This document shows, piece after piece, positions 2,173 through 24,913 of a DNA stretch of 64,000 nt. The stretch comes from Richelia sinica FACHB-800. GTDB lineage: Bacteria; Cyanobacteriota; Cyanobacteriia; Cyanobacteriales; Nostocaceae. A program made the translations under genes and the position numbers. The notes under the pieces were generated by a model. That model saw nothing but the letters and a program-made list of their open reading frames with translations, had not been told where the DNA came from and did not search any database. The number at the start of each line of letters is the position of its first letter. Position 1 is the stretch's first letter. The stretch spans positions 62,001 through 126,000 of the forward strand of contig NZ_JACJTT010000005.1 of the NCBI RefSeq assembly GCF_014698825.1, in the 5' to 3' direction.

Positions 2173-2199
2173 AGTCCTACAACATTAGACATCTGGCAT

Positions 2200-2470
2200 A
2201 AATATTTTTTTTGTTTCACCTAGAGTCGCTTCAGAAGAGAACCCAAAGAAGGACTTTTGCAAGAGGCCTATTTTTGATGAAGAAATTCGCCTCAAACACT
2301 TGCGGGGTAAGGGAAATAAAACAAAAGCCCTAAAATGCCTGAAACCATGAGGAAATCAAGATTAAGCAGAAAATATTGACAGAGATAATAAAAACGGATG
2401 CTGTCGGTATCAGGTTGGATGAGTTTAGCTAGAGGCGCACCCATCCCATCTTTTCATACGGAGACCATTG
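2200..2470 (-). pseudogene. decayed cas2 3' part plus CRISPR leader remnant
   Basis: Read on the minus strand, 2426-2375 matches the intact cas2 at 25067-25118 with 2 mismatches in 52 nt. Positions 2377-2338 match the end of cas2 and the first leader bases (25171-25210) with 3 mismatches in 40. The two blocks abut at a CAAT that occurs at both junctions in the intact gene, so about 55 bp was lost between short direct repeats. Weaker similarity to cas2 continues to about 2470. At the other side, 2264-2200 resembles the sequence just beyond the live array (28620-28694), though that segment may belong to a dispersed repeat. The frame is interrupted and not functional. The rest of this 1959-2635 gap holds the MITE and the Rrf2 promoter region. 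Confidence 0.75.
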
Positions 2471-2635
2471 TATCAATCCGTGATTCCGGTGCAAAATCAA
2501 GCAACTTTAAGAATTATTACCTAAATACACCAGCAAGCCGATAGATTTATGATATTTTGTAAGTAATAAGTGAGATGCTATTACATCTGACACTTTAAAT
2601 AAACTACCTGCGGATAAGAAACGTTAAACCTATCA

Positions 2636-3121
2636 ATGTACAGTAGTATTTTAAATACAGACTTGAATAATAGCCAAAGCTACGCTCTTCTCGATCTATC
2701 TGCCAAGGTGGAATATGCGCTCTTAGCACTCTTAGAACTAGCCATCCACCATGACCAAAAAGTCCCTCTGACGATGAATGAGATTGCAGCCAAGCAACCC
2801 ATCCCAGAGCGATATCTAGAACAAATTCTCACTCACCTGCGTCGTGCTGGTGTTGTGCAGAGTCAACGAGGTTCCAAAGGTGGTTTTTTGCTATTGCGTG
2901 AACCCTGGCAGATTACCTTGCTAGAAATAGTTACCTTGGTAGAAGGGGAACGTAAAGAAAAAGAGAGTGCAGAAACTCGAACCATCGAAAAAACTTTGGT
3001 GTTGGAAATTTGGGAACAAGCTAACGCTTCGGCAATTGAAGTATTGCGCGGTTATACGCTCCAAGATTTGTGTCAGGAAATAGAAACTCGCACTCAAAAC
3101 AATCCCATGTATTACATTTAA
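2636..3121 (+). CDS. Rrf2 family transcriptional regulator
   Basis: A 161-aa DNA-binding protein of the Rrf2 family. The winged helix covers roughly residues 20-95, with the family signature of a recognition helix followed by a GSKGGF wing (VVQSQRGSKGGFLL). Only one cysteine (LCQEIE, near the C-terminus) is present, so it lacks the three-cysteine Fe-S cluster motif of IscR/NsrR. This resembles CymR-type members, which sense cysteine status by partner binding. It lies 18 bp upstream of cysK on the same strand and probably forms an operon with it. Control of sulfur/cysteine metabolism is therefore likely by inference from context and family. Confidence 0.85.
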   Translation: MYSSILNTDLNNSQSYALLDLSAKVEYALLALLELAIHHDQKVPLTMNEIAAKQPIPERYLEQILTHLRRAGVVQSQRGSKGGFLLLREPWQITLLEIVTLVEGERKEKESAETRTIEKTLVLEIWEQANASAIEVLRGYTLQDLCQEIETRTQNNPMYYI

Positions 3122-3139
3122 TCACCCAGAGGTATAGTC

Positions 3140-4102
3140 ATGCGAATAGCAAAAAATATTACTGAATTAGTAGGTAGAACACCCTTAGTACAGTTGAATA
3201 AAATTCCCCAAAGCATTGGTGCAGTAGCGCGAATTGCGGTCAAACTAGAAAGTATGAATCCCGCAGCTTCTGTGAAAGACAGAATTGGTGTGAGCATGGT
3301 GGAAGCCGCAGAAGCAAAAGGGTTAATTTTCCCAGGAAAAACCACCTTAGTTGAGCCGACTTCGGGCAATACAGGAATTGCTTTAGCCATGGTTGCAGCA
3401 GCTAAAGGTTACCGCCTAATTTTAACCATGCCGGATACCATGAGCCAAGAAAGAAGACTGATGCTGAGGGCTTATGGAGCGCATCTAGAGTTAACACCAG
3501 GGGTGGAAGGAATGCGGGGAGCGATCGCTAGAGCTACAGAAATCGTAGCTAGAACCCCCAATGCTTATATGTTGCAACAGTTTAGTAATGCTGCCAACCC
3601 CCAAATTCATGCTCGGACTACAGCCGAAGAAATTTGGAATGACACCGATGGAGAAATTGATATCCTCATTGCTGGAGTTGGCACTGGAGGAACAATTACA
3701 GGGGTTTCTGAAGTAATTAAACAGCGTAAACCCAGCTTTCGAGCGGTGGCAGTCGAACCAGTGAATAGCCCCGTTTTAGGTGGAGGAAAACCAGGCCCCC
3801 ATAAAATTCAAGGTATCGGCCCCGGCTTTATTCCCGCTATTTACCGTTCAGAATTGGTAGATGAAATCATTCAAGTTACAGATGAGCAATCTATTTCCTA
3901 TAGTCGTCGGTTAGCAAAGGAAGAAGGACTATTGTCAGGGATTTCCACTGGCGCGGCTTTATATGCAGCCCTACAAGTTGCCAAGCGTCCAGAAAATGCC
4001 GATAAATTAATAGTCATGGTACAACCCAGCTTTGGTGAACGCTACCTCAGCACACCACTCTTTAAAGACCCAGAAGAAAGCGAATGGTTGACGCAAGTTT
4101 AA
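3140..4102 (+). CDS. cysK: cysteine synthase A (O-acetylserine sulfhydrylase)
   Basis: A PLP-dependent fold-type II enzyme that makes L-cysteine from O-acetylserine and sulfide. The product has the standard length of about 320 aa. The Schiff-base lysine is K46 in [10 protein letters not shown], the substrate loop is PTSGNTG (residues 73-79), and the glycine-rich phosphate cup is [10 protein letters not shown] in the middle of the protein. It follows an Rrf2 regulator by 18 bp, so the pair is likely co-transcribed. An inverted repeat just after the stop codon can end the message. The enzyme appears intact; a related beta-synthase is a remote alternative. Confidence 0.93.
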
Positions 4103-6710: not shown

Positions 6711-7018
6711 GTAGGGGCGGGTTTACCAATGTCTTGGTTGATGGTTGATGATATCTGTGAACCCGCCCCTACTATTTCTGTGGATGTATGGTCTAGGGGT
6801 AGTTTTACCAATATCTTGGTTGATGGTTAATGATATCTGTGAACCTGCCCCTACAATTTCTGTGGATGTATGGTCTAGGGGTAGTTTTACCAATATCTTG
6901 GTTGATGGTTAATGATATCTGTGAACCTGCCCCTACAATTTCTGTGGATGTATGGTCTAGGGGTAGTTTTACCAATATCTTGGTTGATGGTTGATGATAT
7001 CTGTGAACCCGCCCCTAC
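6711..7018. repeat. 82-bp tandem repeat, four copies
   Basis: Four copies with a strict 82-bp period (TAGGGG anchors at 6712, 6794, 6876, 6958); the last copy is shortened. Each copy carries an outer inverted pair (TAGGGGCGGG with CCCGCCCCTA in the best-kept copies), so each unit can fold into a hairpin. No reading frame here looks genuine. The rest of the 6372-7074 gap is AT-rich and shows no recognisable gene. Confidence 0.85.
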
Positions 7019-11142: not shown

Positions 11143-13320
11143 ATGTTAGAAAATTATAGTATTCAACTTAAGTCTGTTTATTCACAAACTGTCCCCACAC
11201 CTGATGGAGTAACATTACCAGATGGTTGGTCACTTTCTTGGCATCAATTAGAAACTTTAAAAGCTTTGCGTGACCCAAATATTGATGTAGTGTTTAACAC
11301 TGCCATGACTGGTGATGGTAAAAGTTTAGCTGCTTATTTAGAAGTTCTTCAAGGTGAATTTTCCGCAATTGGACTTTACCCAACCAATGAATTAGCACGT
11401 GACCAAGAAACACAGCTTCAAGGATATATTGATATATTCCAGCCAGAAAACCAACCGCGCGTATTTAGATTAAGTGGTGCTGATTTAGAAATATATGCAG
11501 AAAATGAAGGCTTAAAAAAAGGGGCGGCACTTTTAACGCTTGCTAGCCAAAGAGAAGCATTATTAACTAACCCTGATATTTTTCATTATTTACATAGAGG
11601 TGCTTATATTATTTCTGGCGATAGTCCTGATAAACTATGGAACAAAATTGATAAAGATTTCGACTTATTTATTTTTGATGAGTTTCATGTTTTTGCAGCA
11701 CCGCAAATCGCCAGCGTAATTAACTCCATGCTGTTAATTCGCTGTACAAATCGCCGGAAAAAGTTCCTCTTTCTCTCCGCGACACCAGATAGAGATTTAA
11801 TTAGTAGATTAGAAACAGCCGAATTTCGGTGTCGAGAAATAAGCCCTCTGGAGGAAGATAAATATCAATTTCCTGATACTCCAGAACAAGAAACGCAATT
11901 AAAAAACCAAGGATGGAGACAGGTAGCACGAGATATTTCACTTAAATTTATATCTTTAGAACCGAGTTTTAAGGCTTCAGAAACTTGGTTGAAAGAGAAT
12001 AGTAATTTAATTGTATCTCACTTTCAGCAACATACAGGCAGTAAAGGTGCGATTATTCTTAATTCGATTGCAGCAGTCAAGCGGCTGACTCAATTTTTTC
12101 AAGAACTTTTAAAACCTTATAATTTAACTGTAGGTGAAAACACAGGTTTATCTAGCAAAGGAGAAAAAGAGCTAAGTCTTGCGGCTGATTTAGTTCTAGG
12201 TACTAGCACTATTGATGTTGGTGTGGACTTCAAAATTAACTTTTTAATCTTTGAATCATCAGATTCAGGTAACTTTATTCAGCGTTTAGGAAGATTAGGA
12301 AGACATGACGGATATGAAAAAAACGGTCAAAAAGTTAAGTTTGATAATTTTACAGCTTATGCTTTAGTGCCTAACTTTTTAGTTGAGCGTTTATTTCAAA
12401 CTGAATCACCACCATTACAAGTTAATGGTATTTATGAGCGTCCATTTTTGCAACAAACTCTCAAAGACCAATATCGGAAAATTAATGATTTTCGTGGTTA
12501 TTATCGCCGTTGGGGTGCTGTACAGTCGTTTTGGCTATGTTATAAATTGAGCGATCGCACCATTCAACAACAGTATGCCCAAAGTCGCGAAAAGTTTCAA
12601 GCAGCCTGTGAAAAAGTATTTGATACCAGCTTAAAATCACAAGCCGGACGTATCTCCGCATGGGCTAAAGAATGGAAAGAAAAATCCGGTAAATCAGGAA
12701 ATCCCATTGCTGATGATGCTGCTAGTTTTCGCGGTTCCAGTCCGTTGCAATGTGGACTATATGATTTAACCGAAAACAACGAAGCGGAAAGATTTAAAAC
12801 CTATGATTTACCAGGCATTTTAAGCAACTTAGAAATTGAAATGTGGACAGAGGCGGGATTTATACGGACATTGAAAGAAACCGCCGAACGTACCGGACAA
12901 CCCATAGCCAAAGGTAGATTTGCCCATTGTCTCGCATTTATAAAGTTGCGTTCCTATCGTGAAGAACGGTTGAACTGGAAATTTACCTATTCTGGAGACT
13001 TACAACCCATCGCTGATGCTTGGAAAGTACAGGTTTTAACAGGTATAGGAATATGGCAACCGGATAACCCTTGGATAGGTCAAATTGATAAAAAGCTGAA
13101 GAAAGAAGGTTTAGTTTGTTATATAATTCGTCGTCCTGTTACAGAAGTGCGGATGCGGTTAAGACTCCCAATGCACTTTCAGCTTTACCCCATCAGCGAC
13201 CAGTCCAGTGTTCATGATGCTAATACACCCTATTCTATAGCCTTTGGTCAGTCTGCATTGTTGCTGGATACGCTTGCTTATACCTTTAAAAGCAAAGGAG
13301 ATGAAATATGGATTGCTTGA
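11143..13320 (+). CDS. cas3: type I-D CRISPR helicase Cas3'
   Basis: A 725-aa superfamily-2 helicase that unwinds target DNA for the I-D effector. Walker A is TGDGKS at residues 56-61, Walker B DEFH at 179-182, motif III SATP at 212-215, and motif VI QRLGRLGRH lies near residue 385. No HD nuclease domain is present; in subtype I-D that nuclease sits in Cas10d, which this locus fits. It begins the operon under the putative promoter opposite the WYL gene, with AAGGA before the ATG. Two vestigial CRISPR repeats start 2 bp after its stop codon, and a roughly 2-kb insert separates it from cas10d. Confidence 0.93.
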   Translation: MLENYSIQLKSVYSQTVPTPDGVTLPDGWSLSWHQLETLKALRDPNIDVVFNTAMTGDGKSLAAYLEVLQGEFSAIGLYPTNELARDQETQLQGYIDIFQPENQPRVFRLSGADLEIYAENEGLKKGAALLTLASQREALLTNPDIFHYLHRGAYIISGDSPDKLWNKIDKDFDLFIFDEFHVFAAPQIASVINSMLLIRCTNRRKKFLFLSATPDRDLISRLETAEFRCREISPLEEDKYQFPDTPEQETQLKNQGWRQVARDISLKFISLEPSFKASETWLKENSNLIVSHFQQHTGSKGAIILNSIAAVKRLTQFFQELLKPYNLTVGENTGLSSKGEKELSLAADLVLGTSTIDVGVDFKINFLIFESSDSGNFIQRLGRLGRHDGYEKNGQKVKFDNFTAYALVPNFLVERLFQTESPPLQVNGIYERPFLQQTLKDQYRKINDFRGYYRRWGAVQSFWLCYKLSDRTIQQQYAQSREKFQAACEKVFDTSLKSQAGRISAWAKEWKEKSGKSGNPIADDAASFRGSSPLQCGLYDLTENNEAERFKTYDLPGILSNLEIEMWTEAGFIRTLKETAERTGQPIAKGRFAHCLAFIKLRSYREERLNWKFTYSGDLQPIADAWKVQVLTGIGIWQPDNPWIGQIDKKLKKEGLVCYIIRRPVTEVRMRLRLPMHFQLYPISDQSSVHDANTPYSIAFGQSALLLDTLAYTFKSKGDEIWIA

Positions 13321-13322
13321 AA

Positions 13323-13425
13323 TTTCAATCCCTGATAGGGATTTTAGAAAGCTTTGTAAGAAAGCCCAGGAGCAACCGCCATTGCATACATGGATATTCG
13401 TTTCAATCCCTGATAGGGATTTTAG
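13323..13425 (-). CRISPR. two vestigial CRISPR repeats in reverse orientation
   Basis: A 25-bp sequence (TTTCAATCCCTGATAGGG then ATTTTAG) occurs at 13323-13347 and again at 13401-13425, 78 bp apart. On the minus strand each ends in ATCAGGGATTGAAA, and the second gives the full GGATTGAAAC end. They share the AATCCCT/AGGGATT hairpin and 3' end with the main array, but the 5' part differs (CTAAAATCCC rather than TATATAATCC). If the repeat is about 37 nt, the spacer between would be about 41 nt. This looks like the residue of a second, related array. Confidence 0.6.
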
Positions 13426-13487
13426 GCAACTTAATGGCGTTACTACCTTTGATGATTTTAGCTCAAAATAGTTTGTTTGACATAGCT

Positions 13488-13502
13488 ACCCCTAAGAGGG
13501 GT
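13488..13502. other. hairpin ACCCCT/AGGGGT in the cas3' 3' region
   Basis: ACCCCT-AAG-AGGGGT forms a 6-bp stem with a 3-nt loop and is followed by TGAATAAC, which faintly resembles a CRISPR-repeat 3' end. No T-run follows. It may be another decayed repeat or an mRNA-stabilising stem. Confidence 0.35.
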
Positions 13503-13582
13503 TGAATAACCATGAATAAAATTTATGATTTAGGAGATATACTTTAGTCATAGTTCAGGAGGCATTGAGTATAGGAGATGAC

Positions 13583-13897
13583 ATGAACCAAAAAACTTAT
13601 AGCAAGATAGCTAGTGCTGCAACCTTTTTACTCACCAATCGTGCTACTGAGTGTAAGGATTATCTTGAGCCACCTTTTCGCCTTGCCATCGACATTTTAG
13701 AAGTGATGAATGATGGTAAACCTTATAAGCCTTGCGAAATAGCTCAGTATCTAATGATGCAGAATATAGACTATCGGGAGAAAGGCTTAAATCCTAGTAC
13801 GGTGCGCCAAGTATTACAAGCACTCAGAGCAGGTTCAGTACCTATAGTAAGTGACCGCAAAAAGGGTTGGTATATCAAAGGTCAGTCCCTAACCTAG
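13583..13897 (+). CDS. winged-helix-like small protein in the cas operon
   Basis: 104 aa from the ATG at 13583, preceded by ATAGGAG (13571-13577), which favours it over an upstream in-frame TTG. The central part (DILEVMNDGKPYKPCEIAQY, then a helix LNPSTVRQVLQALR and a short hairpin SDRKKGWYI) has the order of a winged helix-turn-helix. No named family is recognised. It lies in the insert between cas3' and cas10d on the coding strand. A local regulator or a DNA/RNA-binding accessory factor is possible; function is unknown. Confidence 0.72.
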   Translation: MNQKTYSKIASAATFLLTNRATECKDYLEPPFRLAIDILEVMNDGKPYKPCEIAQYLMMQNIDYREKGLNPSTVRQVLQALRAGSVPIVSDRKKGWYIKGQSLT

Positions 13898-14125
13898 TTT
13901 AACAATGAATTTTGGAGAAGGTTTTTATTGTTTACTTAGTCATTGCAGTAGCAATCACCATTGGATACATGAGATAAGTAATCCGAGTCCTCACCCAGAT
14001 AGTTCATAACTACGGGCTGACAAGGTGTCATAATTTTCATTTTCCTGGTTCATTACTATTTTTGACTTTTGTTCAGTAAAAATTTTCTCCCAAATCAAAA
14101 ATCCTATTTTCACGGAGAAATTAAC

Positions 14126-14362
14126 ATGAGAACAACCAGAAAAATTACACCTTCAGCATCATCATCTTGTGTACAGTTAGAACTTCCCTTGTATCGGAAA
14201 CCAATCCTGCATATTAAGAAAAAAGTTCGTGGTAAAAACAGAAAAGGATTTGACTTGTTAGAAGAAGCTGTAAATTGTTTTCAAATTGCACTAGATAGAA
14301 ATGAAATTAAATCTCCGGAAGCTAGAGATGCCATAAGACAATTTCTATCCTTTGTAAAATAG
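14126..14362 (+). CDS. 78-aa basic hypothetical protein in the cas operon
   Basis: Starts at the ATG preceded by CGGAG (14113-14117); a longer frame upstream lacks a better site. The N-terminal half is basic (HIKKKVRGKNRKGFDLLEEA) and the C-terminal half is predicted helical (FQIALDRNEIKSPEARDAI). It could be a small nucleic-acid-binding protein or antitoxin-like. No family is recognised. The 228 bp upstream of it contains nothing identifiable. Confidence 0.6.
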   Translation: MRTTRKITPSASSSCVQLELPLYRKPILHIKKKVRGKNRKGFDLLEEAVNCFQIALDRNEIKSPEARDAIRQFLSFVK

Positions 14363-14490
14363 GATAATTAGTTACCTTGGTGCGTTACCAACACACTAAC
14401 GCACCAATCAAATCATTTTTGATGATAGCAATAATCTTTATCTATAAAATATAGATTATTATAGCTGTTCACTTTCTGGAGCATCATAAA

Positions 14491-14943
14491 ATGCAAAAAG
14501 ACACTCCCACAATTACAGAACTTAAACAACTATCCTTACAACTGCCAGAAAAAATACCTTACTTGAAAATGTTAGTTCTCTTTGGTTCTAGAGCAACTGG
14601 TAATACCAAAGCTAATAGTGACTGGGATTTTGCAGTTTTATGTGACGAAGAACAACGTCAGACTTACATAGGAAATCATCATTCTTCTTTATTTGAACTA
14701 CCAAGTTTGGTTGGGCAATTGTTAAAAATAAATTCTGACATTATAGATATTGTCGAACTCAATCATTGTTCTTGGTTAATTGCTCATTTTATAGCCCGTG
14801 ATGGAATTGTCTTGTTTGAAAAATATTGTGGAGAATTTGAGAAATTTAAATTAAATTCATTGAAAAGTGAAACTGAGTTAAAACAATATCGCCAAGAACA
14901 ATATCGAATCCTTGACAGAGAATTAAAGAAGTGGGGAGCATGA
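14491..14943 (+). CDS. mntA: MNT nucleotidyltransferase antitoxin (MntA)
   Basis: A 150-aa minimal nucleotidyltransferase. The GSx10DxD catalytic motif is G32-S33 ... D44-W-D46 (FGSRATG ... SDWDFAV), and a further acidic residue lies in IIDIVELNH. In the characterised HEPN-MNT system of Aphanizomenon flos-aquae, encoded beside a I-D CRISPR locus, MNT di-AMPylates the active-site tyrosine of the HEPN toxin and silences it. Here the stop codon overlaps the hepT start (ATGA), so the two are coupled. The function is transferred from that homologue. Confidence 0.9.
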   Translation: MQKDTPTITELKQLSLQLPEKIPYLKMLVLFGSRATGNTKANSDWDFAVLCDEEQRQTYIGNHHSSLFELPSLVGQLLKINSDIIDIVELNHCSWLIAHFIARDGIVLFEKYCGEFEKFKLNSLKSETELKQYRQEQYRILDRELKKWGA

Positions 14944-15392
14944 GTAATATAGACTCGGAAATAATTGTAGCTAGGCTCAGGCTAATTAATAAATATTACA
15001 ACACATTAGAAGAATTCCGCTCCATTAGCCTTGATGAATTTTTGTCTGATTTTCGTCAACAACTTGTTGTAGAAAGACTTCTGCAATTAATGACTCAAGC
15101 CGCAATAGACATCAACGACCATATATTGTCAAAGCTAAACCCTGGGCAAGCTTTCACTAATTTTGAGGCTTTTATCGAATTGGGTCAATATCAAATCATT
15201 ACACCAGAACTAGCTAAACAAATTGCACCATCGTCAGGATTAAGAAATCGGTTAGTGCATGAATATGACGATATAGACCCAAATCAAGTTTTCAAAGCAA
15301 TTAGTTTTGCTTTACAGCAATACCCACTTTATGTTAGACAAATCAACTCTTATTTGATTTCATTGGAAGAAGACAATGGCTATAAAAAGTAA
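14940..15392 (+). CDS. hepT: HEPN ribonuclease toxin (HepT)
   Basis: 150 aa from the ATG overlapping the mntA stop, with GGGGAG just upstream. The RX4HXY motif is R102-NRLV-H107-E-Y109. The tyrosine number equals Tyr109, the AMPylated residue in the Aphanizomenon toxin, which also supports this start over an ATG 9 nt upstream. That homologue trims 4 nt from the 3' end of certain tRNAs. The last 17 bp overlap the start of cas10d, so toxin and interference gene are translationally linked. Confidence 0.92.
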   Translation: MSNIDSEIIVARLRLINKYYNTLEEFRSISLDEFLSDFRQQLVVERLLQLMTQAAIDINDHILSKLNPGQAFTNFEAFIELGQYQIITPELAKQIAPSSGLRNRLVHEYDDIDPNQVFKAISFALQQYPLYVRQINSYLISLEEDNGYKK

Positions 15393-18300
15393 AGAATCAG
15401 ATGAATATCAACAGTTATCGCTCTTAGAAACAGAAAACAGTTCAGAAGAATTTCAATCATCAGAAGATGACTGGTTATCAAGTGAATTTGGCTTTGATAG
15501 TGATGGCGATAGAACTATTGAAACCAAAGGACAATTACTCACACTTAAACTATTAAGAGAAGCAATTAAATCGCAAAATACCAATGATCAAGTAATGGCA
15601 GATTTTGCCGAGTATGTTTTACCTAATCTGCTGAAAATAGCTATTGGTGTCACGGCTAAAGGTGGTAAATTCTTTGATGAAATAGATGAAAAGCGAGCAG
15701 CAGAAGGTAAAAGCAGAGTTAGACGGGATAATGCTGCTGACCAATCTTTAAATACACACTTGCTCAACGGTTTATTTCCAGCAAATTTAATTGAGCAAAG
15801 ATTAGAAAAGCTCGATACTACTGTTAAACGAGTAGTCAAAGATAAAGAACGACGTTTAGTAATTGCTGGGTTTATTTTACATGACTTTGAAAAGTTCCCA
15901 GATGCACCGGAAGATTGTCGCAAGTTACCTTTAGATGAACATAGAAAAATCATTGATGAAAAAGTTAAACAATTAGGACTTGATAAATTTATCAATCCTG
16001 ATAATCCTGAAGATTATCAAGAGTATCTTGATGATTTATTGTGTATGGCTTACAATGCACAAAGACGCTGGGATACTAACTGGAATTTTTCTGAGTTTGG
16101 CTTAAATCCCGTTTTAAAAGACCGGACTATTCAGAGTCTATCAGATTTAACTTGTTTAGCTGATTCTCTCGCTTCAATTATCAAACATCCCCAAGACGCA
16201 GAAAATCCAAGACTGAATGAAATTATTCATAGTCTCAGTGATGGTAAATTGAAATTTACTTATCATCACATTGCCGAAAATAGAGGCGTTTTAACCAACG
16301 TTGTTAATAATGCTGTCATTGAAGCTCATACTAACTTAAATACTGAGGAAAATAAATATTATCAACCTTTGTTATATCTACCAACTGGTGTAATTTATCT
16401 AGCTTTGCGTGATGCTCCCCCTATCTCATCAGCAACTTTACCAGACTTGGTAGTTGATAAGATTAAATCTCTCTGTGCTGGTCAATTGAAGCTCAGACAA
16501 ACGGGGTTTGGTAGAGATGGAAAAGGGATGAAATATGCTGAATATTACAACCTCTTTTTTGATTCTCCTGGTTTAATGCAAGTTGCTTTAGATGCAACAC
16601 TGAGAATTTTAAAATCTGGTAAACCATCAGTTGCTAAAAGTCGCAGTGAGAATTTAGTGAAATTTCAAAAGCAGAGTGTTTTATCTGCTGATTACGATTT
16701 TAACTTTGATGATGATATACGTATTGATCAAATTGCCGAATTTGGAGATTTAATTACTCGTAAAATTTGGGAAGAAACAGTTGAGAGAATTGAAATAGCT
16801 AGAAAAAAAGATAAAAAACTTCCAGAAGTTCCCAAGTTTGATTTAACTCACAAAGTCGCTGAATTTTGGAATTTAACAGAATATTTACCCCAAATCAGAG
16901 AAATTCAACTTATCAATGAAAGTTTGAAAGAACAAAAACTCAAAGGTAATACCGGGGGTGTACCTTATGAATGGTATTACCTAGCAGCTAAATATCTGGA
17001 GAAGAATCAAGGTGTTGAAGATGTTAGAGAAAATTGTCAACAGGTGATTGATTATTTAACAAATTTAATATCACCAATTCTAACTCAGTATCAATTACCC
17101 GATGGTTGGGATGATTTAAGGTTATGGGTAACGAGAGTAGTGATGTTACCTAGCGCGAATAAAGCAGCATCTGTCAAAACGGAAGTTGATAATTTTCTCC
17201 ATGAGTTAAGTAACTATAACGCTGCTAAAAAGTCAGGGAGAGGTAAACAATTAATTTGCTCAATTTCTCACTCAGCTTACACTGTTACTGAGCAAATGGA
17301 ATCAGCGGTTTTATTTACTCCCCAAGTTTATACTAATAAGCAAATGTTAGGAGGTTCTAACGCTAAACGCAACATTTCCAGTATTGCAGGAGTGGAAATG
17401 ATGCTCAGACAAATATTGATGAATCAAACTCAAGCAGTAGGTAAAAGATTTGAAGATGGTAAATATCGCTATCTCTACTTTTATCCAACTTATTACTTCA
17501 CACCAGAAACTAATAAGTTCTTACAAAAAGCTTACACCAATATTGCTCAAACTCGGTTCGATACTAGCATCCGAAATCATTTCATTAGTAAAGATTTACA
17601 GGTTGATTTGGGTAAAGAAAATTATCAAAGTGTGGATAGTTTCTTAATTGATGAAAATTTAGATAGTGAAAAAGACCGCACATTTAAACTTTCCTATCCT
17701 GAAGATCAACCTTTAACTTTTTACTTCATGGCTTTACCTCCTGGAAGAGACAGCACTGATACTGAATCTTGGGTAATGCCGAGTTGGTTAGCGTTTGCTT
17801 TTCCGATGATTTTAGATGTGAAAACTGTAGTTTCTGAGTCTCCTATTCCTCCATTTAATGACGGTGCAGAATTTGAAGAAACCGTATTTCTTGATAGTGC
17901 GCCTCATGCTTTCCGAACTTTGGTGAAAAGAGATAGATTCAGACTTGATTACATTCTCGAAGGTTGGGAAGAGTACGGTATTCAATATCCTGCACCTTTA
18001 AATGTATTAACTGCTGCTTACGCTATTCATTTAGATGTCAATGCTAGGCAAGGTAAAACTGGTTATGATGCTAACTGGGGGAAATTTACGGAACTAGCCA
18101 AGGATTTTGAAACCAGTCCTCTGTATGTCTTTGCTTATCTGAATAAATGGGTGCGTAACCAAGGAGTGGAAACAGCCAGGCTTGAAAAAATCAAGCTTTA
18201 CACTTATCATTTTTACCCTTGTTTTGACCCTTATACAAAATTTGATTTTAATCAGGAGAAATTAATTGTGGGAGAAGCGTCTAATTTGAATCATCCAAAG

Positions 18301-18726
18301 AAATTAACGGAACTGTATCGCCGTTTTTACCGGGCGAATAAAAGGTTTAATCCTAAAGCTAATGCTGTTTTAAAACCGATTGATATTGCTGCGGAAACTA
18401 TTCTGAAAGCAGATTCAAGTGTGTTTGAGGGTGAAACCTTAACTTTAGCAGTAGCAGCAGAGATTTTTAAACTCATGGATCGGGTACATTCTTCAACTGC
18501 TGAAGGACGCTGGATGATGAGTAAACGAGAGGAAGAAAGACAAGCTGTTTTAGATTTTGCTAGATATTTTGTAGAGGAAGTATTTGAGAAAAGTTTTAAA
18601 AGCGATCGCGCGCGTTTAGCAGGTCGTCAATTAAACCTGATTCGCGATACCTGTGAATTTCTTTATCGTTTAGAAGATGACAAAGAAAACGCAGATAAAT
18701 CTAAATCTGACGACGAAGATCCGTAG
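15376..18726 (+). CDS. cas10d: type I-D large subunit Cas10d (Csc3)
   Basis: The 1116-aa large subunit of the I-D complex, combining PAM/target recognition with the nuclease. An acidic N-terminal tail (1-50) precedes an HD nuclease region with H128 and the HD pair H169-D170 (FILHDFEKFP). The middle is the Cas10-like part, where no canonical GGDD motif was noticed. The C-terminal 150 residues are helical and double as Cas11d from an internal start. The ATG lies inside hepT without its own good SD, implying coupled translation. The stop codon touches a 29-bp palindrome. Length is typical of Csc3 proteins. Confidence 0.93.
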   Translation: MAIKSKESDEYQQLSLLETENSSEEFQSSEDDWLSSEFGFDSDGDRTIETKGQLLTLKLLREAIKSQNTNDQVMADFAEYVLPNLLKIAIGVTAKGGKFFDEIDEKRAAEGKSRVRRDNAADQSLNTHLLNGLFPANLIEQRLEKLDTTVKRVVKDKERRLVIAGFILHDFEKFPDAPEDCRKLPLDEHRKIIDEKVKQLGLDKFINPDNPEDYQEYLDDLLCMAYNAQRRWDTNWNFSEFGLNPVLKDRTIQSLSDLTCLADSLASIIKHPQDAENPRLNEIIHSLSDGKLKFTYHHIAENRGVLTNVVNNAVIEAHTNLNTEENKYYQPLLYLPTGVIYLALRDAPPISSATLPDLVVDKIKSLCAGQLKLRQTGFGRDGKGMKYAEYYNLFFDSPGLMQVALDATLRILKSGKPSVAKSRSENLVKFQKQSVLSADYDFNFDDDIRIDQIAEFGDLITRKIWEETVERIEIARKKDKKLPEVPKFDLTHKVAEFWNLTEYLPQIREIQLINESLKEQKLKGNTGGVPYEWYYLAAKYLEKNQGVEDVRENCQQVIDYLTNLISPILTQYQLPDGWDDLRLWVTRVVMLPSANKAASVKTEVDNFLHELSNYNAAKKSGRGKQLICSISHSAYTVTEQMESAVLFTPQVYTNKQMLGGSNAKRNISSIAGVEMMLRQILMNQTQAVGKRFEDGKYRYLYFYPTYYFTPETNKFLQKAYTNIAQTRFDTSIRNHFISKDLQVDLGKENYQSVDSFLIDENLDSEKDRTFKLSYPEDQPLTFYFMALPPGRDSTDTESWVMPSWLAFAFPMILDVKTVVSESPIPPFNDGAEFEETVFLDSAPHAFRTLVKRDRFRLDYILEGWEEYGIQYPAPLNVLTAAYAIHLDVNARQGKTGYDANWGKFTELAKDFETSPLYVFAYLNKWVRNQGVETARLEKIKLYTYHFYPCFDPYTKFDFNQEKLIVGEASNLNHPKKLTELYRRFYRANKRFNPKANAVLKPIDIAAETILKADSSVFEGETLTLAVAAEIFKLMDRVHSSTAEGRWMMSKREEERQAVLDFARYFVEEVFEKSFKSDRARLAGRQLNLIRDTCEFLYRLEDDKENADKSKSDDEDP
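18268..18726 (+). CDS. cas11d: type I-D small subunit Cas11d from an internal start
   Basis: Inside cas10d and in frame with it, AGGAG (18254-18258) stands 9 nt before a GTG that is codon 965 (LIV-GEASN). Translation from there gives a 152-aa helical protein identical to the Cas10d C-terminus. Independent translation of the small subunit from within cas10d has been shown for cyanobacterial I-D systems (Synechocystis). Here the site is predicted from spacing and frame, not measured. Its product would line the crRNA-target duplex in the complex. Confidence 0.72.
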   Translation: MGEASNLNHPKKLTELYRRFYRANKRFNPKANAVLKPIDIAAETILKADSSVFEGETLTLAVAAEIFKLMDRVHSSTAEGRWMMSKREEERQAVLDFARYFVEEVFEKSFKSDRARLAGRQLNLIRDTCEFLYRLEDDKENADKSKSDDEDP

Positions 18727-18751
18727 GGGTTTAGCAATGCTAAACCCCTAC
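18723..18751. repeat. 29-bp palindrome between cas10d and csc2
   Basis: GTAGGGGTTTAGCA, one central base, then the exact complement; 14-bp arms. The same 29 bp recurs at 34733-34761, so it is a dispersed palindromic repeat. The left arm overlaps the cas10d stop codon. As RNA it would form a strong hairpin inside the cas message, which could set different stabilities for the two sides. Confidence 0.8.
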
Positions 18752-18801
18752 CCCACCCAAAAATTTTACTAACTTCATTAACCCTAATTTGGAGAAACAT
18801 T

Positions 18802-19812
18802 ATGGCATTTTTAAAAACCGTTGACGCTAAATTATTTCAATCTGAAATCCCCTACAAACCAATGGGTAAATATGCCCACTTTCTCACCATTCGTGTGACC
18901 GAATCTTATCCTTTATTTCAAACAGATAGCGAACTCAACAAAGCACGAGTTAGAGCAGGAGTCAAAGACAAAAACACCATTAGCCGTCTTTCCATGTTCA
19001 AACGTAAACAGTCCACGCCAGAAAGATTAGTAGGTCGGGAATTATTGCGGAAATACGAATTTATGACAGCAGAAGATTGTGAATATAACGTTAAATTTGC
19101 AATGGATAATCCTGATTGTATTATTTACGGCTTTGCTATTGGTGACTCCGGTTCAGAAAAATCAAAAGTTGTCGTAGATACTGCATTTTCAATTACAGCT
19201 TTTGATGAATCTCACGAAACATTTACCCTCAATGCACCTTTTGAAAATGGGACAATGGCTTCTAAAGGTGAAGATAATTCTAAACCTGGTGAAGTTACTA
19301 GCAGAATTAATCAACAAGACCACATTAAACCACAGGTATTTTTTCCCAGCATTGTTACACTCAAAGACCCTACAGAAGCCAGTTTTTTATATGTTTTAAA
19401 TAACATTATCAGAACTCGACACTATGGCGCACAAACAACCCGTACAGGTCGCATCAGAAACGAATTAATCGGAGTTGTATTTGCTGATGGAGAAATTGCC
19501 AGTAATCTCCGTTGGACTCAAGCAATATATGACCAAATGAAGGCTAATAATACACTCAAATCACCAGATCCTTTAGACGAAGATGATGTAATTACTGCTG
19601 CTAAAAAGGCAATTGAGAATTTAATGGCAGATGAGTTTATTGTGCATACTGACTTTATTGGTGATGCTTTTATACCTTTGTTGAATGAAGTCAAAACCCT
19701 GACTAATAACGAAGCAGGAATTAAATCTATTTTGCAAAAAGCTGATGCAGAAGCTAAAGAATATGCCAATAAACATATTAGCAAAAAGAAAACTGCGGCT
19801 AAGGCTAAGTAA
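18802..19812 (+). CDS. csc2: type I-D backbone subunit Csc2 (Cas7d)
   Basis: The 336-aa RAMP-type protein that polymerises along the crRNA to form the I-D backbone. Length and position (after cas10d, before csc1) match Csc2. Characteristic stretches include an N-terminal KPMGKYAHFLTIRVTESYPL and a central RTRHYGAQTTRTGRIRNELI, a basic loop suited to RNA contact. The start has GGAGA upstream. The C-terminus is lysine-rich (KKKTAAKAK). It is followed by csc1 after only 5 bp. Confidence 0.92.
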   Translation: MAFLKTVDAKLFQSEIPYKPMGKYAHFLTIRVTESYPLFQTDSELNKARVRAGVKDKNTISRLSMFKRKQSTPERLVGRELLRKYEFMTAEDCEYNVKFAMDNPDCIIYGFAIGDSGSEKSKVVVDTAFSITAFDESHETFTLNAPFENGTMASKGEDNSKPGEVTSRINQQDHIKPQVFFPSIVTLKDPTEASFLYVLNNIIRTRHYGAQTTRTGRIRNELIGVVFADGEIASNLRWTQAIYDQMKANNTLKSPDPLDEDDVITAAKKAIENLMADEFIVHTDFIGDAFIPLLNEVKTLTNNEAGIKSILQKADAEAKEYANKHISKKKTAAKAK

Positions 19813-19817
19813 CAGCC

Positions 19818-20525
19818 ATGACTATTATCTACCGTTGTCAATTAGAACTACACGACAGTCTGTATTTTGCCACTCGTGAAATTGGCAGACTATACGAAAC
19901 GGAGCCAATAATTCACAATTATGCACTCTGTTATGCACTCGGCTTAGTTGATAACCCTGTTTACTCAACTACCGTTGCTGAAGAAGATTCCTATTGCTAT
20001 TTCTGTCCTGAACAAGTGCCAAAATATGAGGAACATTTAACCCCACTCAACCAACAGGAAATTTATGTTACTCCGGCTCGTTCTCTCAATCATACGGCTA
20101 TTCTGAATACATGGAAGTATGCTAATAATAACTACCATGTAGAAATGGAGAAAACCCAAAAGAATATTCCCAGTTTTGGACGAGCCAAAGAAATTGCGCC
20201 AGAAAGTCAATTTGAGTTTTTTCTCATCTCTGAAAAACACATCAAATTACCGAAATGGATTCGTTTGGGAAAATGGATGAGTAAGGCTGAGTTAATAGTT
20301 AAAGAATTACCTAAACCGAAAAAGACTGAAGGTGTATTCACCTGTTCTCATCCTTTAAATCCTTTGGATGTCATGTTTACTAATCAAGTAATTAGCTATG
20401 ATGTAGTAAATATGCCGCCAGTTAGTCTAATTCAAAATGTGCAAATGCGAGGGGAATATTACTATTTTGATGATGTCAAAGATGTAAAACTTCCTAAGTT
20501 GATGCAATACCGTTTTCGGAGTTAA
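19818..20525 (+). CDS. csc1: type I-D subunit Csc1 (Cas5d)
   Basis: A 235-aa Cas5-type RAMP protein expected to cap the 5' handle of the crRNA in the I-D complex. The order and length fit Csc1. The N-terminal strand IIYRCQLELHDSLYFATREI is the first RAMP beta strand, and a proline/lysine-rich region (ELPKPKKTEGVF) lies near residue 165. It has no visible SD, as expected for coupling to csc2 across a 5-bp gap. Its stop codon abuts an opposite-strand gene end. Confidence 0.92.
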   Translation: MTIIYRCQLELHDSLYFATREIGRLYETEPIIHNYALCYALGLVDNPVYSTTVAEEDSYCYFCPEQVPKYEEHLTPLNQQEIYVTPARSLNHTAILNTWKYANNNYHVEMEKTQKNIPSFGRAKEIAPESQFEFFLISEKHIKLPKWIRLGKWMSKAELIVKELPKPKKTEGVFTCSHPLNPLDVMFTNQVISYDVVNMPPVSLIQNVQMRGEYYYFDDVKDVKLPKLMQYRFRS

Positions 20526-20945
20526 TTACTGACCAAAACCTTTACCTCTTTTTTTCTTTTTAGGAGGACTTAAAGGCATTAATTCAGTCATCAGACTACC
20601 ACGATTTTGTAACATTAACTTACGATTTCGATCCCGTTGATAAGTTGCTATTTCTTCTGCATGGGGATGATCCGGATCTATTTTGAGATGGGTAATAGAT
20701 ACTACATATTGTGCTTGATCTTCATCTTTGGGATTATCGTTTTTGCTGACTAGTCGGCACATAATCCCACCTTCATCTCCAGAATAAGCTACCCAATCAA
20801 CCTCAAATTCTTTCTCTGGATTGACTAGTTCTCCCCTTTTTTTCAACATTTTTAAGAATTCTTTCCTTGCCTTGACTTTAATTGGTAAACTGGCTTCTAA
20901 CTTTTCAGTAAGTGCAGTTGCTACATTTTTATCATCAATTCTCAT
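20526..20945 (-). CDS. unknown 139-aa protein, opposite strand in the cas locus
   Basis: A frame read against the cas operon, ending exactly where csc1 ends. The product has an N-terminal helical region, a mixed middle (VDWVAYSGDEGGIMCRLVSK) and a very basic tail (PPKKKKRGKGFGQ). The balanced domain-like composition argues for a real gene. No family is recognised. Its position, flanked by csc1 and the 2OG oxygenase gene, would require a separate promoter in 20946-21035. It interrupts the cas operon, so cas6 onward may be transcribed separately. Confidence 0.65.
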   Translation of the reverse strand: MRIDDKNVATALTEKLEASLPIKVKARKEFLKMLKKRGELVNPEKEFEVDWVAYSGDEGGIMCRLVSKNDNPKDEDQAQYVVSITHLKIDPDHPHAEEIATYQRDRNRKLMLQNRGSLMTELMPLSPPKKKKRGKGFGQ

Positions 20946-21035
20946 GTATCTAACCCTCTATGGTATTTTGTTTAAGTTTAAAATTATTACAATCATAAAC
21001 TGAAATACTTAATTATTCTTTCCTGCTTTTGTACC

Positions 21036-21647
21036 GTGAAATACTATCAACAACAACCCAACGCCTTCCCCATTAATTACCTTAACGACTTATGGGGAGA
21101 AATCAATTCTTGCCCTTACTTTGCTGTCAACAACCTCAACCGCGATTTTGTCAACACCAAAGGTTTTTCTGTAGTATTCCAACGTGAAGGAATCGCAGAA
21201 GTAGAAAAAAAATTTCCTTTTTTCAAGCCTTATTTAGATTTGGCTCTTCAGCCTAATTGCAACGCTTTTTATCTTAATCCTTTACTGCTCAAAGAAGGTT
21301 CTCGTGTTGACCCGCATATAGATAGGTCGCTCCGTTCCTATTGTAAAACAATTCAACCACCGGCTTATGTCAGCGTTCTCTATGTGCGTGTCCCAGAAAA
21401 CATGGAGGGAGGAGAATTAGTCTTAAAATCCCACAAACGCCAAGTTGGACAAATTAAACCCCAAACTAATACCCTGCTTTACTTTCAAGGTGATTTAACT
21501 CATTCCGTTAATGCTGTCAAAACTCCTGGTAATCGCTTGAGTTTGGTTTGTGAGCAGTATAATTTAGATGAGAGTGAATTAGAAGAAATACCGTATTTTA
21601 CTTTAGAGTCTAGAGCTACTCAAGCGATAAATAAGAAACGCAAGTAA
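21036..21647 (+). CDS. 2OG-Fe(II) oxygenase in the type I-D locus
   Basis: A 203-aa double-stranded beta-helix dioxygenase. The iron ligands fit HxD in VDPHIDRSL (around residues 91-99) and a distal H in GDLTHSVNAV; the 2-oxoglutarate arginine fits NRLSLVCEQY. The start is GTG. Members hydroxylate proteins, nucleic acids or small molecules with 2-oxoglutarate and O2. It sits between the interference genes and cas6 on the same strand. Whether it serves the CRISPR system is unknown; it may be cargo. Confidence 0.8.
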   Translation: MKYYQQQPNAFPINYLNDLWGEINSCPYFAVNNLNRDFVNTKGFSVVFQREGIAEVEKKFPFFKPYLDLALQPNCNAFYLNPLLLKEGSRVDPHIDRSLRSYCKTIQPPAYVSVLYVRVPENMEGGELVLKSHKRQVGQIKPQTNTLLYFQGDLTHSVNAVKTPGNRLSLVCEQYNLDESELEEIPYFTLESRATQAINKKRK

Positions 21648-21666
21648 AAAATTACATCAAGTTTTA

Positions 21667-21689
21667 ATTTCCTCATTGAGAAAGGAAAT
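21667..21689 (+). promoter_or_regulatory. hairpin covering the cas6 ribosome-binding site
   Basis: Arms ATTTCCT (21667-21673) and AGGAAAT (21683-21689) pair across a 9-nt loop. The right arm contains the only purine-rich SD (AAGGAAA) before the cas6 ATG at 21699, so folding would mask it. This is a structural prediction only. Confidence 0.4.
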
Positions 21690-21698
21690 ATCTAAAAT

Positions 21699-22529
21699 AT
21701 GCCTCATAGCTTAGTGTTAAATCTGCTTCCCCAGTCACCTATCCCACCCCAATATCTAACAGGAAGACACTTACACGCTCTATTTCTCACACTAGTCAGT
21801 TCTGTAGATTATAGCTTGGGCGATCGCTTGCATGATGCCACCGCAGATAAAGCCTTCACCCTCTCCCCCTTGCAAATTCACTCTCCACGCTCCCACAGGG
21901 GTGCTAGCAAACACACAACCTTGCAATTCTTTCATTCCCAACCTATCCTCCCAGGAACCCCTTGCTGGTGGAGAATATCCCTTTTAGACGACACTCTTTT
22001 TAGTCAACTAACGCAACTATGGCTAAATCTCAACCCTGATAAACCTTGGCATTTAGGCCCTGCTGACTTATTTATCACCAGCATACAAGGCACACCCCAG
22101 TCTACCCAACCTTGGGCAAATGCTACCACCTATGCTCAATTATATGAACAAGCCGGCGCAGTTGAGAAAACAATTAGCTTGATTTTTGCTACACCAACCG
22201 CTTTCCGTCAAGGCAAGTTTGATACCACTCTTCCTACTAGAGAATGTGTGTTTAATTCCCTTCTTTCCCGTTGGCATAAATATAGTGGCATAGAATTTTC
22301 AGATATTGCCATCGAATCTATTTTTCCTTCATTTATTAATATTCACACAGAAATAGTAGCTGATTCTCGTAGTAAATTTATTGGCGTTATGGGCGAGATT
22401 ACATATCGAATTATGGGTGATTTAGAACCAGAAAAAGTTAAGCAAATTAATGCTTTAGCTGACTTCGCTTTGTATGCTGGTGCGGGAAGAAAAACAACAA
22501 TGGGTATGGGAATGATAAGAAGAAGGTGA
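21699..22529 (+). CDS. cas6: CRISPR pre-crRNA endoribonuclease Cas6 (type I-D)
   Basis: The 276-aa repeat-specific RNase that cuts pre-crRNA at the base of the repeat hairpin. The C-terminal glycine-rich loop is YAGAGRKTTMGMGMIRR, the diagnostic Cas6 signature. H24/H26 (GRHLHALFL) near the N-terminus are candidate catalytic or RNA-contact histidines. Its expected substrate is the AATCCCTA/TAGGGATT hairpin of the adjacent array, leaving the 5' handle ATTGAAAC. The final arginines and stop lie at the edge of a 36-bp direct duplication. Confidence 0.93.
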   Translation: MPHSLVLNLLPQSPIPPQYLTGRHLHALFLTLVSSVDYSLGDRLHDATADKAFTLSPLQIHSPRSHRGASKHTTLQFFHSQPILPGTPCWWRISLLDDTLFSQLTQLWLNLNPDKPWHLGPADLFITSIQGTPQSTQPWANATTYAQLYEQAGAVEKTISLIFATPTAFRQGKFDTTLPTRECVFNSLLSRWHKYSGIEFSDIAIESIFPSFINIHTEIVADSRSKFIGVMGEITYRIMGDLEPEKVKQINALADFALYAGAGRKTTMGMGMIRRR

Positions 22530-22596
22530 CAGTTAAGAAGCTGACAGGGAACAGGTGACAGGTGACAGTTAAGAAGCTGACAGGGAATAGGTGACA
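22525..22596. repeat. 36-bp direct repeat, two copies (AGGTGAC-rich)
   Basis: A unit beginning GGTGACAGTTAAGAAGCTGA repeats at 22525 and 22561 with one base difference. It is built from AGGTGAC-like heptamers of the cyanobacterial short-tandem-repeat class. The first copy overlaps the last codon and the stop of cas6. Confidence 0.85.
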
Positions 22597-22610
22597 GAGA
22601 GAATTTAGTA

Positions 22611-22981
22611 ATGAAAATTGAATCACATCGAGATTTAATTGTGTGGCAAAAATCTAATCTATGGATATGGTAGTCCAAATTTATCAATTATCTACCGCAT
22701 TTCCGAATAGCGAAATTTATCGGCTGACATCACAAATTACTCGTGCTGCTTCATCCGTACCTGCCAATATTGCCGAAGGTCACGCACGAGGCACAACAAA
22801 AATTGATTTTGCTCATTTTCTGGCTATTGCTAAAGGTTCACTCATGGAAACAGAAACTTTTCTGATGCTAGCAGTCAGACTAAATAATTTAACTCCAGAG
22901 CAAGCAAATCCCACGTTATCTCTAATTACAGAGATTAGCAAAATGCTGACTTCTTTGCGCTACCGCATCCTTAATAATTAA
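22611..22981 (+). pseudogene. four-helix-bundle (23S rRNA IVP-like) protein, frameshifted
   Basis: The frame from the ATG reads MKIESHRDLIVWQKS and then stops at 22671-22673. Removing one copy of the duplicated pentamer AATCT (22651-22655, 22656-22660) restores DLIVWQKSMDMVVQIYQL and joins the downstream frame, giving a complete protein of about 122 aa of the S23/IVP four-helix family (RAASSVPANIAEGHARGT is the signature). The 5-bp tandem duplication therefore broke the gene. An internal ATG at 22661 could still give a shortened product lacking the first helix. Such proteins have no known CRISPR role. Confidence 0.8.
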
Positions 22982-23000
22982 TGAATTAATCATGAAAGGA

Positions 23001-23108
23001 CTAATAATAATCTTGCGTCTGTAATTCTTTTACTCTTCAGACCCCACGCCCACACCCACGCCTACACCCACCTAATAATAATCTTGCGTCTGTAATTCTT
23101 TTACTCTT
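23001..23108. repeat. 37-bp direct repeat, two copies
   Basis: CTAATAATAATCTTGCGTCT and the next 17 bases occur at 23001-23037 and 23072-23108 (71-bp period), separated by a C-rich stretch of CCCACACC-like units. It lies between the broken IVP gene and cas4 and is non-coding. Confidence 0.85.
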
Positions 23109-23126
23109 ACCTCTCACCTATTTACT

Positions 23127-23776
23127 ATGACTAAACAAAACACTCTTAATAATCTAACCGCATCTTCTTTACTGTCACCTGTCACCTGTCACCTATCACC
23201 TATTACTATCGCTTCTCTCAATCAATATTCATACTGTCCCCATAGATGTTGGCGGATGCACTGTGCAGGAGAATTTCAAGATAATCAATACACAATTGAA
23301 GGCACAAGTTTACATGGTAAAGTACATACGACAGGTGAAGGTAAACGGGAATCAACTTGGCAATTTCGCTCAATTTGGCTCAAGTCTGAACAGTATAACC
23401 TGAGTGGTAAATCAGATTTAATTGAAGAAGAAAACGGCGAATTTTACCCAGTGGAATATAAGCGGGGACGCAAGGGGAATGGGATAATGATGAATTACAA
23501 GTTTGTGCCCAAGCTTTATGTTTAGAGGAAATGACTGGTAAATCTGTAAACATTGGCTATGTTTATTATGCCCAATCTCATCAACGACAATTAGTACAAA
23601 TTACGCCAGAATTACGCCAAAGCACAATTGACACTATTGCATCTGTGCAGAATCTGTTAATCACAGGAATAATGCCTAAACCTATTTACAGTAAACGCTG
23701 TAAAGGTTGTAGTTTATATTCTCAATGTTTACCCGAAGTTCGCGAAAAAATGAGCCGCTATCAAGAAGAAAATTAA
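23127..23776 (+). pseudogene. cas4: CRISPR-associated Cas4 nuclease, frameshifted
   Basis: Two frames together make one Cas4. The first has the leading cysteine (YCPHRCW), GKSDLIEE and the RecB-type ExK motif PVEYKRG. The second has the QxxxY-like region and the C-terminal Fe-S cysteines KRCKGCSLYSQC. They are joined by restoring one T after AAGGGGAAT (about 23480), which would read KGNWDNDEL in place of KGNGIMMN. As it stands, translation stops at 23523-23525, before the Fe-S cluster ligands. The N-terminus also contains heptamer-repeat codons (LLSPVTCHLSPIT). Cas4 trims prespacers and checks the PAM; it is probably inactive unless the base loss is a sequence error. Confidence 0.85.
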
Positions 23777-23786
23777 GGAGTTAATT

Positions 23787-24791
23787 ATGGGAACACTATA
23801 TGTCGCACATGATGATGCTTTTATTGGCAAAACTGATGAGAGATTGATTGTCAAAGCTGAGAAGAAAATTCTACAAGATATTCCTTTTATTCAGGTCGAG
23901 GGAATTGTAATTTTAGGACGAGCAACAGTTTCACCTGCGGTTGTTGAAGAGATTTTAACCCGCAAAATCGGTTTAACTTTTATCAACCAAATCGGACATT
24001 ATTTAGGCAGACTTGAACCGGAACATACAAAAAACATCTTTGTGCGTAAAGCTCAATGGAGTGCAGCAGGAGAAACACCCCAATCTATACATTTAGTTAA
24101 AGGTTTTGTACGGGGTAAATTGAAAAACTATCGTAATGCTTTACTTCGCGCTCAAAGGGAAGATGCTGGGCTTGATTTGAGTAGTTATATTACTAAATTA
24201 GAGCAAGCAATATCACCAATTGAGCAAACAGATAAAATTGCCTCCCTCCGAGGTCTAGAAGGTGCAGGAAGCGCAGCTTATTTCGGGTGTTTTGACCAAC
24301 TGATTAAACATCCAGATTTTGAATTTTCCAAACGTAAACGCCGACCTGCAACCGACCCTGTAAATTCTCTCTTGGGTTTTGGCTATACCTTGTTACAACA
24401 CGACATTCAAAACGCCGTGAATATCGTCGGTTTTGACCCCTATCTTGGATATTTGCACTTTGACCATTATGGCAGACCTTCCCTAGCTTTGGACTTAATG
24501 GAAGAATTTCGCCCCTTGGTAGTGGATGCAATGGTGTTGTCACTCATCAACAAGCGATCGCTCACACCAGCAGATTTTATCACCGAACCCCTCAGCAATG
24601 CCATGAAATTAAACCCAGAGGGTAAAAAAACATTTCTAAAAGCCTATCAACAAAAGAAACTCGCAAACTTCAAACACCCAGTATTAGGACGCAAATGTAC
24701 ATATCAAGAAGCCTTTGAAATTCAAGGGCGGTTATTAGCTAAATATCTCATGGGTGAAATTGAGCAATATCCACCTTTAGTATTGAGGTGA
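23787..24791 (+). CDS. cas1: CRISPR integrase Cas1
   Basis: The 334-aa integrase subunit of the Cas1-Cas2 spacer acquisition complex. Catalytic residues are readable: E158 in RGLEGAGSAAYF, H224 in GYLHFDHYG and an acidic pair E239/E240 in LALDLMEEFRP. AAGGAG stands before the ATG. Length and motifs are complete. It follows cas4 by 10 bp and precedes cas2 across a 122-bp gap that is filled with short repeats, so coupling to cas2 is loose. The family assignment is certain; the I-D subtype follows from context. Confidence 0.95.
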   Translation: MGTLYVAHDDAFIGKTDERLIVKAEKKILQDIPFIQVEGIVILGRATVSPAVVEEILTRKIGLTFINQIGHYLGRLEPEHTKNIFVRKAQWSAAGETPQSIHLVKGFVRGKLKNYRNALLRAQREDAGLDLSSYITKLEQAISPIEQTDKIASLRGLEGAGSAAYFGCFDQLIKHPDFEFSKRKRRPATDPVNSLLGFGYTLLQHDIQNAVNIVGFDPYLGYLHFDHYGRPSLALDLMEEFRPLVVDAMVLSLINKRSLTPADFITEPLSNAMKLNPEGKKTFLKAYQQKKLANFKHPVLGRKCTYQEAFEIQGRLLAKYLMGEIEQYPPLVLR

Positions 24792-24870
24792 CAGGGAACA
24801 GGTGACAGGTGACAGTAAAGAAAGCAGGGGAAGCAGGGGGAGAATAAACTTCTATCTATTCCCTATTCCC

Positions 24871-24912: not shown

Positions 24913-24913
24913 T

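Follow-up and report, generated by a model that had tools for sequence, protein, structure and literature searches.

A decayed and inverted cas2 fragment beside dispersed elements, apart from the live type I-D CRISPR locus of Richelia sinica FACHB-800

Pseudogene fragments of cas genes are a known kind of sequence. In the window (the whole stretch of 64,000 nt of DNA that was analysed), a cas2-like stretch at 2338-2463 on the minus strand, hereafter the relic, resembles such fragments: it is an incomplete cas gene with a disrupted reading frame and lies near a locus of matching type, namely the type I-D CRISPR-Cas locus at 11143-28610. It is unlike other cas pseudogene fragments in being only 126 bp long, inverted, without leader core or array, and located at a probable rearrangement junction. 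Its sequence is that of the cas2 of the type I-D locus, but searches next to it revealed neither cas1 nor a leader core nor repeats. Two short dispersed elements, one next to the relic (copy A) and the other at the end of the live array (copy B), are comparable to MITEs and to transposons with a DDE_Tnp_4-type transposase, which we take to be IS5-like. Their ends are like the 18-bp inverted ends of such a transposon in one relative (G001), and 3-bp duplications flank both this transposon and copy A; A and B differ from these transposons in that both are shorter than 100 bp, too short for a transposase. Among the titles and abstract openings surveyed, none reported the present findings. The relic would be a clear small example of cas-gene debris from genome rearrangement, and its surroundings carry a caution, namely that a dispersed element at an array end can be mistaken for an array flank and hence for the trace of a vanished CRISPR locus.

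The live operon comprises cas3d (11143-13320), cas10d (15376-18726), csc2 (18802-19812), csc1 (19818-20525), cas6d (21699-22529), cas4 in two pieces (23127-23776), cas1 (23787-24791) and, on the plus strand, cas2 (24914-25186; Pfam CRISPR_Cas2, 5.2e-29; PADLOC Cas2d, 4.6e-41), which is the source family of the relic. The leader core (25219-25468, plus strand) precedes the array (25469-28610, plus strand), in which 43 exact repeats are followed by a truncated last repeat at 28583-28610. The leader start motif GCGCGGAT is common to five arrays of the same genome: the live one and those of C67, C33, C7 and C31, the four further arrays with related leaders being L198, L199, L200 and L201. The repeat of the C31 array (L201) is quite different from that of the live array, and a lone repeat was observed about 640 bp past the C33 array.

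The relic contains the 3' half of cas2 and 24 nt past the stop codon. Read on the minus strand from 2463 to 2338, it aligns to the live type I-D cas2 at 25035-25118 and 25170-25210. At 12 of the 121 aligned sites the two sequences differ; the relic also has an insertion of 5 bp and, at CAAT, a deletion of 55 bp, and both indels break the cas2 reading frame. The copied source would have comprised about 176 bp, starting in cas2 at codon 41 and running 24 nt beyond its stop. When the reverse complement of 1950-2640 was used as a blastn query against the 64,000-nt window, matches were obtained at 25035-25124 (95 columns, 83%, E 2e-23), 25170-25210 (41 columns, 93%, E 2e-11) and 28620-28689 (71 columns, 75%, E 5e-7). 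The local alignment of the relic with cas2 plus leader scored 116, compared with a mean of 18.6 and a maximum of 28 in 300 dinucleotide shuffles. A sequence-only reading of this DNA had reported a minus-strand match of 52 nt to cas2 with two mismatches, and this was confirmed (25067-25118, differences at 25076 and 25107). The same reading had described 40 nt with three mismatches as the cas2 end plus the start of the leader; the count is right (25171-25210, differences at 25174, 25179 and 25197), but the 24 nt after the stop are not conserved leader. It had also placed CAAT at both junctions of the intact gene, which agrees with the CAAT copies at 25115 and 25170 that bound the 55-bp deletion. 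The homology reaches 32 nt farther upstream (25035-25066), with seven differences and the 5-bp insertion. Among 42 spacers, none matched within 2200-2640 at E <= 1. Judged by these alignments, the relic is a genuine, ordinary and non-functional cas2 pseudogene fragment in inverted orientation.

The origin of the relic was traced by comparison with other cas2 genes. The genome holds four Cas2 genes, the live one included, and only the live cas2 matched the cas2 part of the relic below E 0.001, by which the other three were rejected as sources; the next match was 28 nt on C16 (E 0.005), followed by weaker ones. The outgroup consisted of the best 80 of 243 Cas2 relatives from a scan of public genomes. 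Matches to the relic at E <= 1e-3 were present in 44 of these 80 loci, the strongest being 48 nt at 90% (L176) versus 95 and 41 columns for the live gene; all 80 scored far below the live cas2 against the relic and were likewise rejected. At 13 sites the relic and the live gene have in common a state that occurs in less than 10% of the 80 other cas2 loci; five of these sites are inside the gene and eight are beyond its stop codon, in a part that aligns only loosely with other genomes. On account of these rare sites, the relic is a decayed copy of the cas2 of its own lineage. The live cas2 has the commonest state of the 80 others at 10 of the 12 sites where the relic differs, the exceptions (25066 and 25174) both being variable sites; the differing site 25197 sits past the cas2 stop, where the alignment is loose. 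The changes thus fall mainly on the relic branch.

Wider searches were performed with both the live and the decayed sequence. The query 25030-25216 gave matches in 144 of 217 family genomes at E <= 1e-9, its own genome included, and among the matches listed, the live gene and the relic alone extended past query position 168 of 187; three candidates were scored per genome, and weaker relics elsewhere may be missed. With the relic itself as the query, 10 of 40 genomes had matches at E <= 0.01, including its own; a full-length Cas2 was present at eight of the nine other loci, whereas tblastn found none at the remaining one (L040). Extra copies of the cas2 end were seen in one of the 80 other cas2 loci, within the stretches examined: in Calothrix sp. 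FI2-JRJ7 (L174, 6321-6440) the cas2 end is duplicated directly downstream of the gene as pieces of 37 and 27 nt.

The relic site is 22 kb left of the CRISPR locus, between MurJ (348-1958) and Rrf2-cysK (2636-4102). The genus was represented by its own genome alone. MurJ was absent from all 29 Rrf2 loci examined in relatives, each with 1.5 kb on both sides, and from all four larger Rrf2 regions, three of which had Rrf2-cysK with cadmium-transporter genes nearby and the fourth (L238) Rrf2 and cadmium-transporter genes without cysK. In six MurJ neighbourhoods of about 20 kb, no array was found, and a test with 32 further proteins of the window likewise detected none of them. Given that the MurJ-Rrf2 adjacency was not found in the relatives examined, the site is probably a rearrangement junction. 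A conserved stretch upstream of Rrf2 (2535-2617, plus strand) forms its right-hand limit; 2555-2617 is 76% identical in G006 (L042/L237), and 2535-2588 is 80% identical in G017 (L048). A junction specific to this genome probably lies within 1959-2535, filled with the relic and two kinds of dispersed repeat. One kind is copy A; the other, unrelated to it, is a palindromic repeat (GTAGGTTGGGTTG...) at 2031-2171 without assigned strand, which matches its own reverse complement and has many full and partial copies in the genome.

Copy A (2187-2269, minus strand) is a MITE-like element of 83 bp, AGGCCTCTTGCA...TGCCAGATGTCT, with related copies elsewhere in the genome and 3-bp AAT/AAT target duplications at 2270-2272 and 2184-2186. 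Copy B (28615-28697, plus strand) adjoins the truncated last repeat; its right end is decayed and therefore approximate. The resemblance between the relic's surroundings and 28620-28694, formerly taken as the distal flank of the array, is real, but it is due to a dispersed repeat. When 2180-2470 was used as the query, seven near-full-length copies (C29, C3 twice, C28, C67 and C12 twice) outscored the array-end copy at 28620-28689, and the surroundings of these seven copies were unrelated sequence. The local score of A with B was 61, compared with 91, 90, 89, 87, 83, 75 and 62 for A with the seven copies; A with five truncated or divergent copies scored 56, 52, 43, 40 and 38. A search with another element copy returned at least 41 matches at E <= 1, with 40 of 66 candidates scored, and many of the 41 were short and within the GCGCCTCTGCG part. 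Copies A and B are not sisters. Their identity of 75% over 71 columns, against approximately 90% between the relic and the live gene, further suggests that A and B were not copied together with cas2. The proposal that a leader had been joined to the distal flank therefore finds no support, as the leader core is absent and seven copies are closer to A than B is; the common flank was rejected as evidence for a collapsed array, being a dispersed element whose copies A and B are not sisters. The sequence-only reading had named a dispersed repeat as an outcome that would refute it, and this outcome applies to the flank side; the cas2 side stands.

The element ends are inverted (AGACCTCTTGCA / TGCAAGAGGTCT). 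Against the inverted end AGACCTCTTGCA, copy A has one and two mismatches of 12, and copy B has two at its left end and six at its decayed right end. An exact 3-bp duplication borders four of nine copies in the genome (A, C67, C12a and C3a) and that of G126; the duplication is inexact in the other five, B included, and in the array copy of G001. Bordered by an AAT/AAT target duplication, copy A thus reached the site by an insertion separate from the relic. In G001, a transposon with two open reading frames matching HTH_Tnp_4 and DDE_Tnp_4 has identical 18-bp inverted ends and ACT on both sides, and a transposon with these element ends was seen in G001 only. Given these ends and the flanking ACT, A and B are best read as short non-autonomous relatives of this DDE_Tnp_4-type transposon.

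We consider it probable that the relic is a short, inverted patch of the cas2 3' end that was left at a rearrangement junction and has since been decaying. About 176 bp of the cas2 of its own lineage would have been pasted, inverted, between MurJ and the Rrf2-cysK-cad cassette, with the repeat-rich junction as the landing place. The patch may have been generated when the rearrangement created the junction, for example by template switching or by filler synthesis, and it would have arrived as a short patch and not as a whole CRISPR locus stripped down later. Point changes, the 5-bp insertion and the 55-bp deletion between the two CAAT copies would have followed. The relic match ends sharply at 25035 and 25210, and these ends speak for a short patch, because at 10% divergence any copied neighbours would be easily visible. 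However, bacterial pseudogenes lose sequence by deletion, and the sharp ends may also be the deletion ends of a larger copy. The 65 bp between the relic and copy A (2273-2337, no strand) had no convincing match. Of the old duplication or relocation that had been proposed earlier, the decayed inverted copy of the cas2 3' end from the live lineage holds, and the collapsed array is unsupported.

A second explanation, which we regard as doubtful, is that a former cas2-leader-array locus in opposite orientation stood here, and that its leader core and array were deleted and the end of cas2 was left beside later insertions. The orientation and distance of the relic fit an inverted duplication, and the genome shows a spread of arrays whose leaders are related, four existing besides the live one. 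No cas2 match at E <= 0.01 was found beside any of these four (3-8 kb around each), which argues that the spreading leader did not drag cas2 along here. The common part of the leader in the live locus starts at about 25215-25219, and the relic stops at 25210. Neither motif of the leader core (GCGCGGAT ... CTTGAAAACTAA) was present in 1959-2636 on either strand, and the best local score of the CRISPR repeat in 1960-2640 was 15 on either strand, below the shuffle means of 17.6 and 18.1. The flanks of the relic were compared with the leaders and trailers of four arrays and with cas1 and the cas2 5' part, in 18 comparisons. The sole one that stood out was between 2275-2337 and the live leader, which are weakly similar near 25350-25373 with order and strand as expected; only 2 of 300 simple shuffles were as good, but the similarity fades with dinucleotide shuffles, 26 of 300 of which were as good. 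If it is real, part of the leader was copied too. The expectation that relatives might carry a CRISPR locus near Rrf2-cysK was borne out in one of four regions (G001), where an array of 36 repeats lies next to non-cas genes, but about 10 kb beyond cysK and not at the relic site. Its leader is partly related (69% over 154 columns), and a search of 18 kb of G001 at the Rrf2 region for six Cas proteins of the window found none of them. This array is situated on the other side of Rrf2-cysK and does not speak for a CRISPR locus where the relic stands. The argument from a distal flank is void with the flank being a dispersed element, and a complete lost CRISPR locus is possible but unproven.

It is rather unlikely that the relic represents the remains of a larger segment copy or a rearrangement without an array, for example one in which the I-D operon was inverted or relocated and part of cas2 stayed behind. 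Neighbourhoods that lie apart in the relatives examined meet at the site, and elements A and B stand inverted on either side of the operon; yet A and B are not sister copies, and the intact live cas2 shows that the piece is not missing from the operon. Moreover, neither cas1 nor the 5' half of cas2 was recognisable beside the relic, where 237 of 300 and 163 of 300 shuffles were as good in the two comparisons. Chance similarity, or a retained functional element in the form of a short open frame or small RNA, is highly improbable, as the homology goes far beyond shuffles and the relic had no Rfam match at E <= 0.1, even though a 50-codon open frame from an ATG crosses the relic and continues into unrelated sequence. 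Three Rfam matches in 1900-2700, all under gathering scores, were located at 2029-2171 on the palindromic repeat. The relic has no present function, as far as can be judged from its sequence.

Insertions of this element family were also compared at last CRISPR repeats. In arrays of three genera, the final repeat gives way to an AGACNTCTTNCA element end at one and the same nucleotide (CCCTATTAGGGATT / GAAAC), the joint being mutated in the live array. The insertion loci are 28583-28697 in the window, L235 (14357-17070), L308/L330 (G126) and, doubtfully, L321 (G027). In G001 the last repeat breaks off as CCCTATTAAGGATT and continues as AGACCTCTTGCA..., with the nucleotide of the break and the element both as in the live window array. 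The G126 element has ATTGAAAC after it, which is the remainder of the repeat with an exact ATT duplication. A pattern search of 217 family genomes gave nine matches in nine genomes, and the reversed control gave seven in seven, so most of the nine are due to chance; three of the nine are in arrays (G000, G001 and G126), where the repeat concerned is in every case the final one observed within 1.5 kb. A second search of 388 genomes of the order, with at most three mismatches, gave 30 matches in 24 genomes versus one in the control, and three of the 30 are in arrays, namely G001 and G126 again plus G027. The G027 case is doubtful: the contig ends 114 bp farther on, and the sequence after the element end is unlike the element.

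When element ends (16 nt, at most three mismatches) were sought near arrays in 89 sources with 84 array calls, three of the calls had one within 250 bp, in each case on the distal side (window, L198 and L235). At 68 of the 80 other cas2 loci, 72 array calls of the GATTGAAA type had no element end within 250 bp, with 15 of these calls having less than 310 bp of sequence beyond and 12 of the 80 loci giving no call. The association between element and array is not general. No further repeats were seen beyond the element at the last-repeat insertions. We tentatively raise the idea, with more doubt than belief, that the last CRISPR repeat is a recurrent target of the element family; the same arrangement would arise if an internal insertion were followed by loss of the repeats distal to it. 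If the idea is true, an inserted element may act as a cap that sets the distal end of an array, and an element close to CRISPR debris could mark a former array. Should the recurrent use of one nucleotide in the last repeat be upheld by a wider count, it would provide a new insight into how array ends are shaped. In the C67 array (L198, 4261-5300), a dispersed element with AAT duplications lies about 110 bp beyond the last repeat.

Several further features of the window were recorded. The two pieces of cas4 (23127-23776) are open reading frames in different frames that cover both halves of the Cas4d profile, which indicates a frameshift or sequencing error. A 2OG-Fe(II) oxygenase-like gene (21036-21647) and a gene for a 23S rRNA intervening-sequence protein (22661-22981) are present among the cas genes. 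Inside the I-D operon, a mini-array of two degenerate repeats and a 41-nt spacer was observed on the minus strand at 13320-13428, and no window site except the spacer itself had at least 9 leading and 12 of the first 20 bases matching this spacer. The mini-array is about 1 kb before genes matching nucleotidyltransferase and HepT (14491-15392), an arrangement that may be like that of CRISPR-regulated toxin-antitoxin loci. The array scan also flagged a periodic repeat of three copies at 6774-6992, which is without the GATTGAAA end of the arrays.
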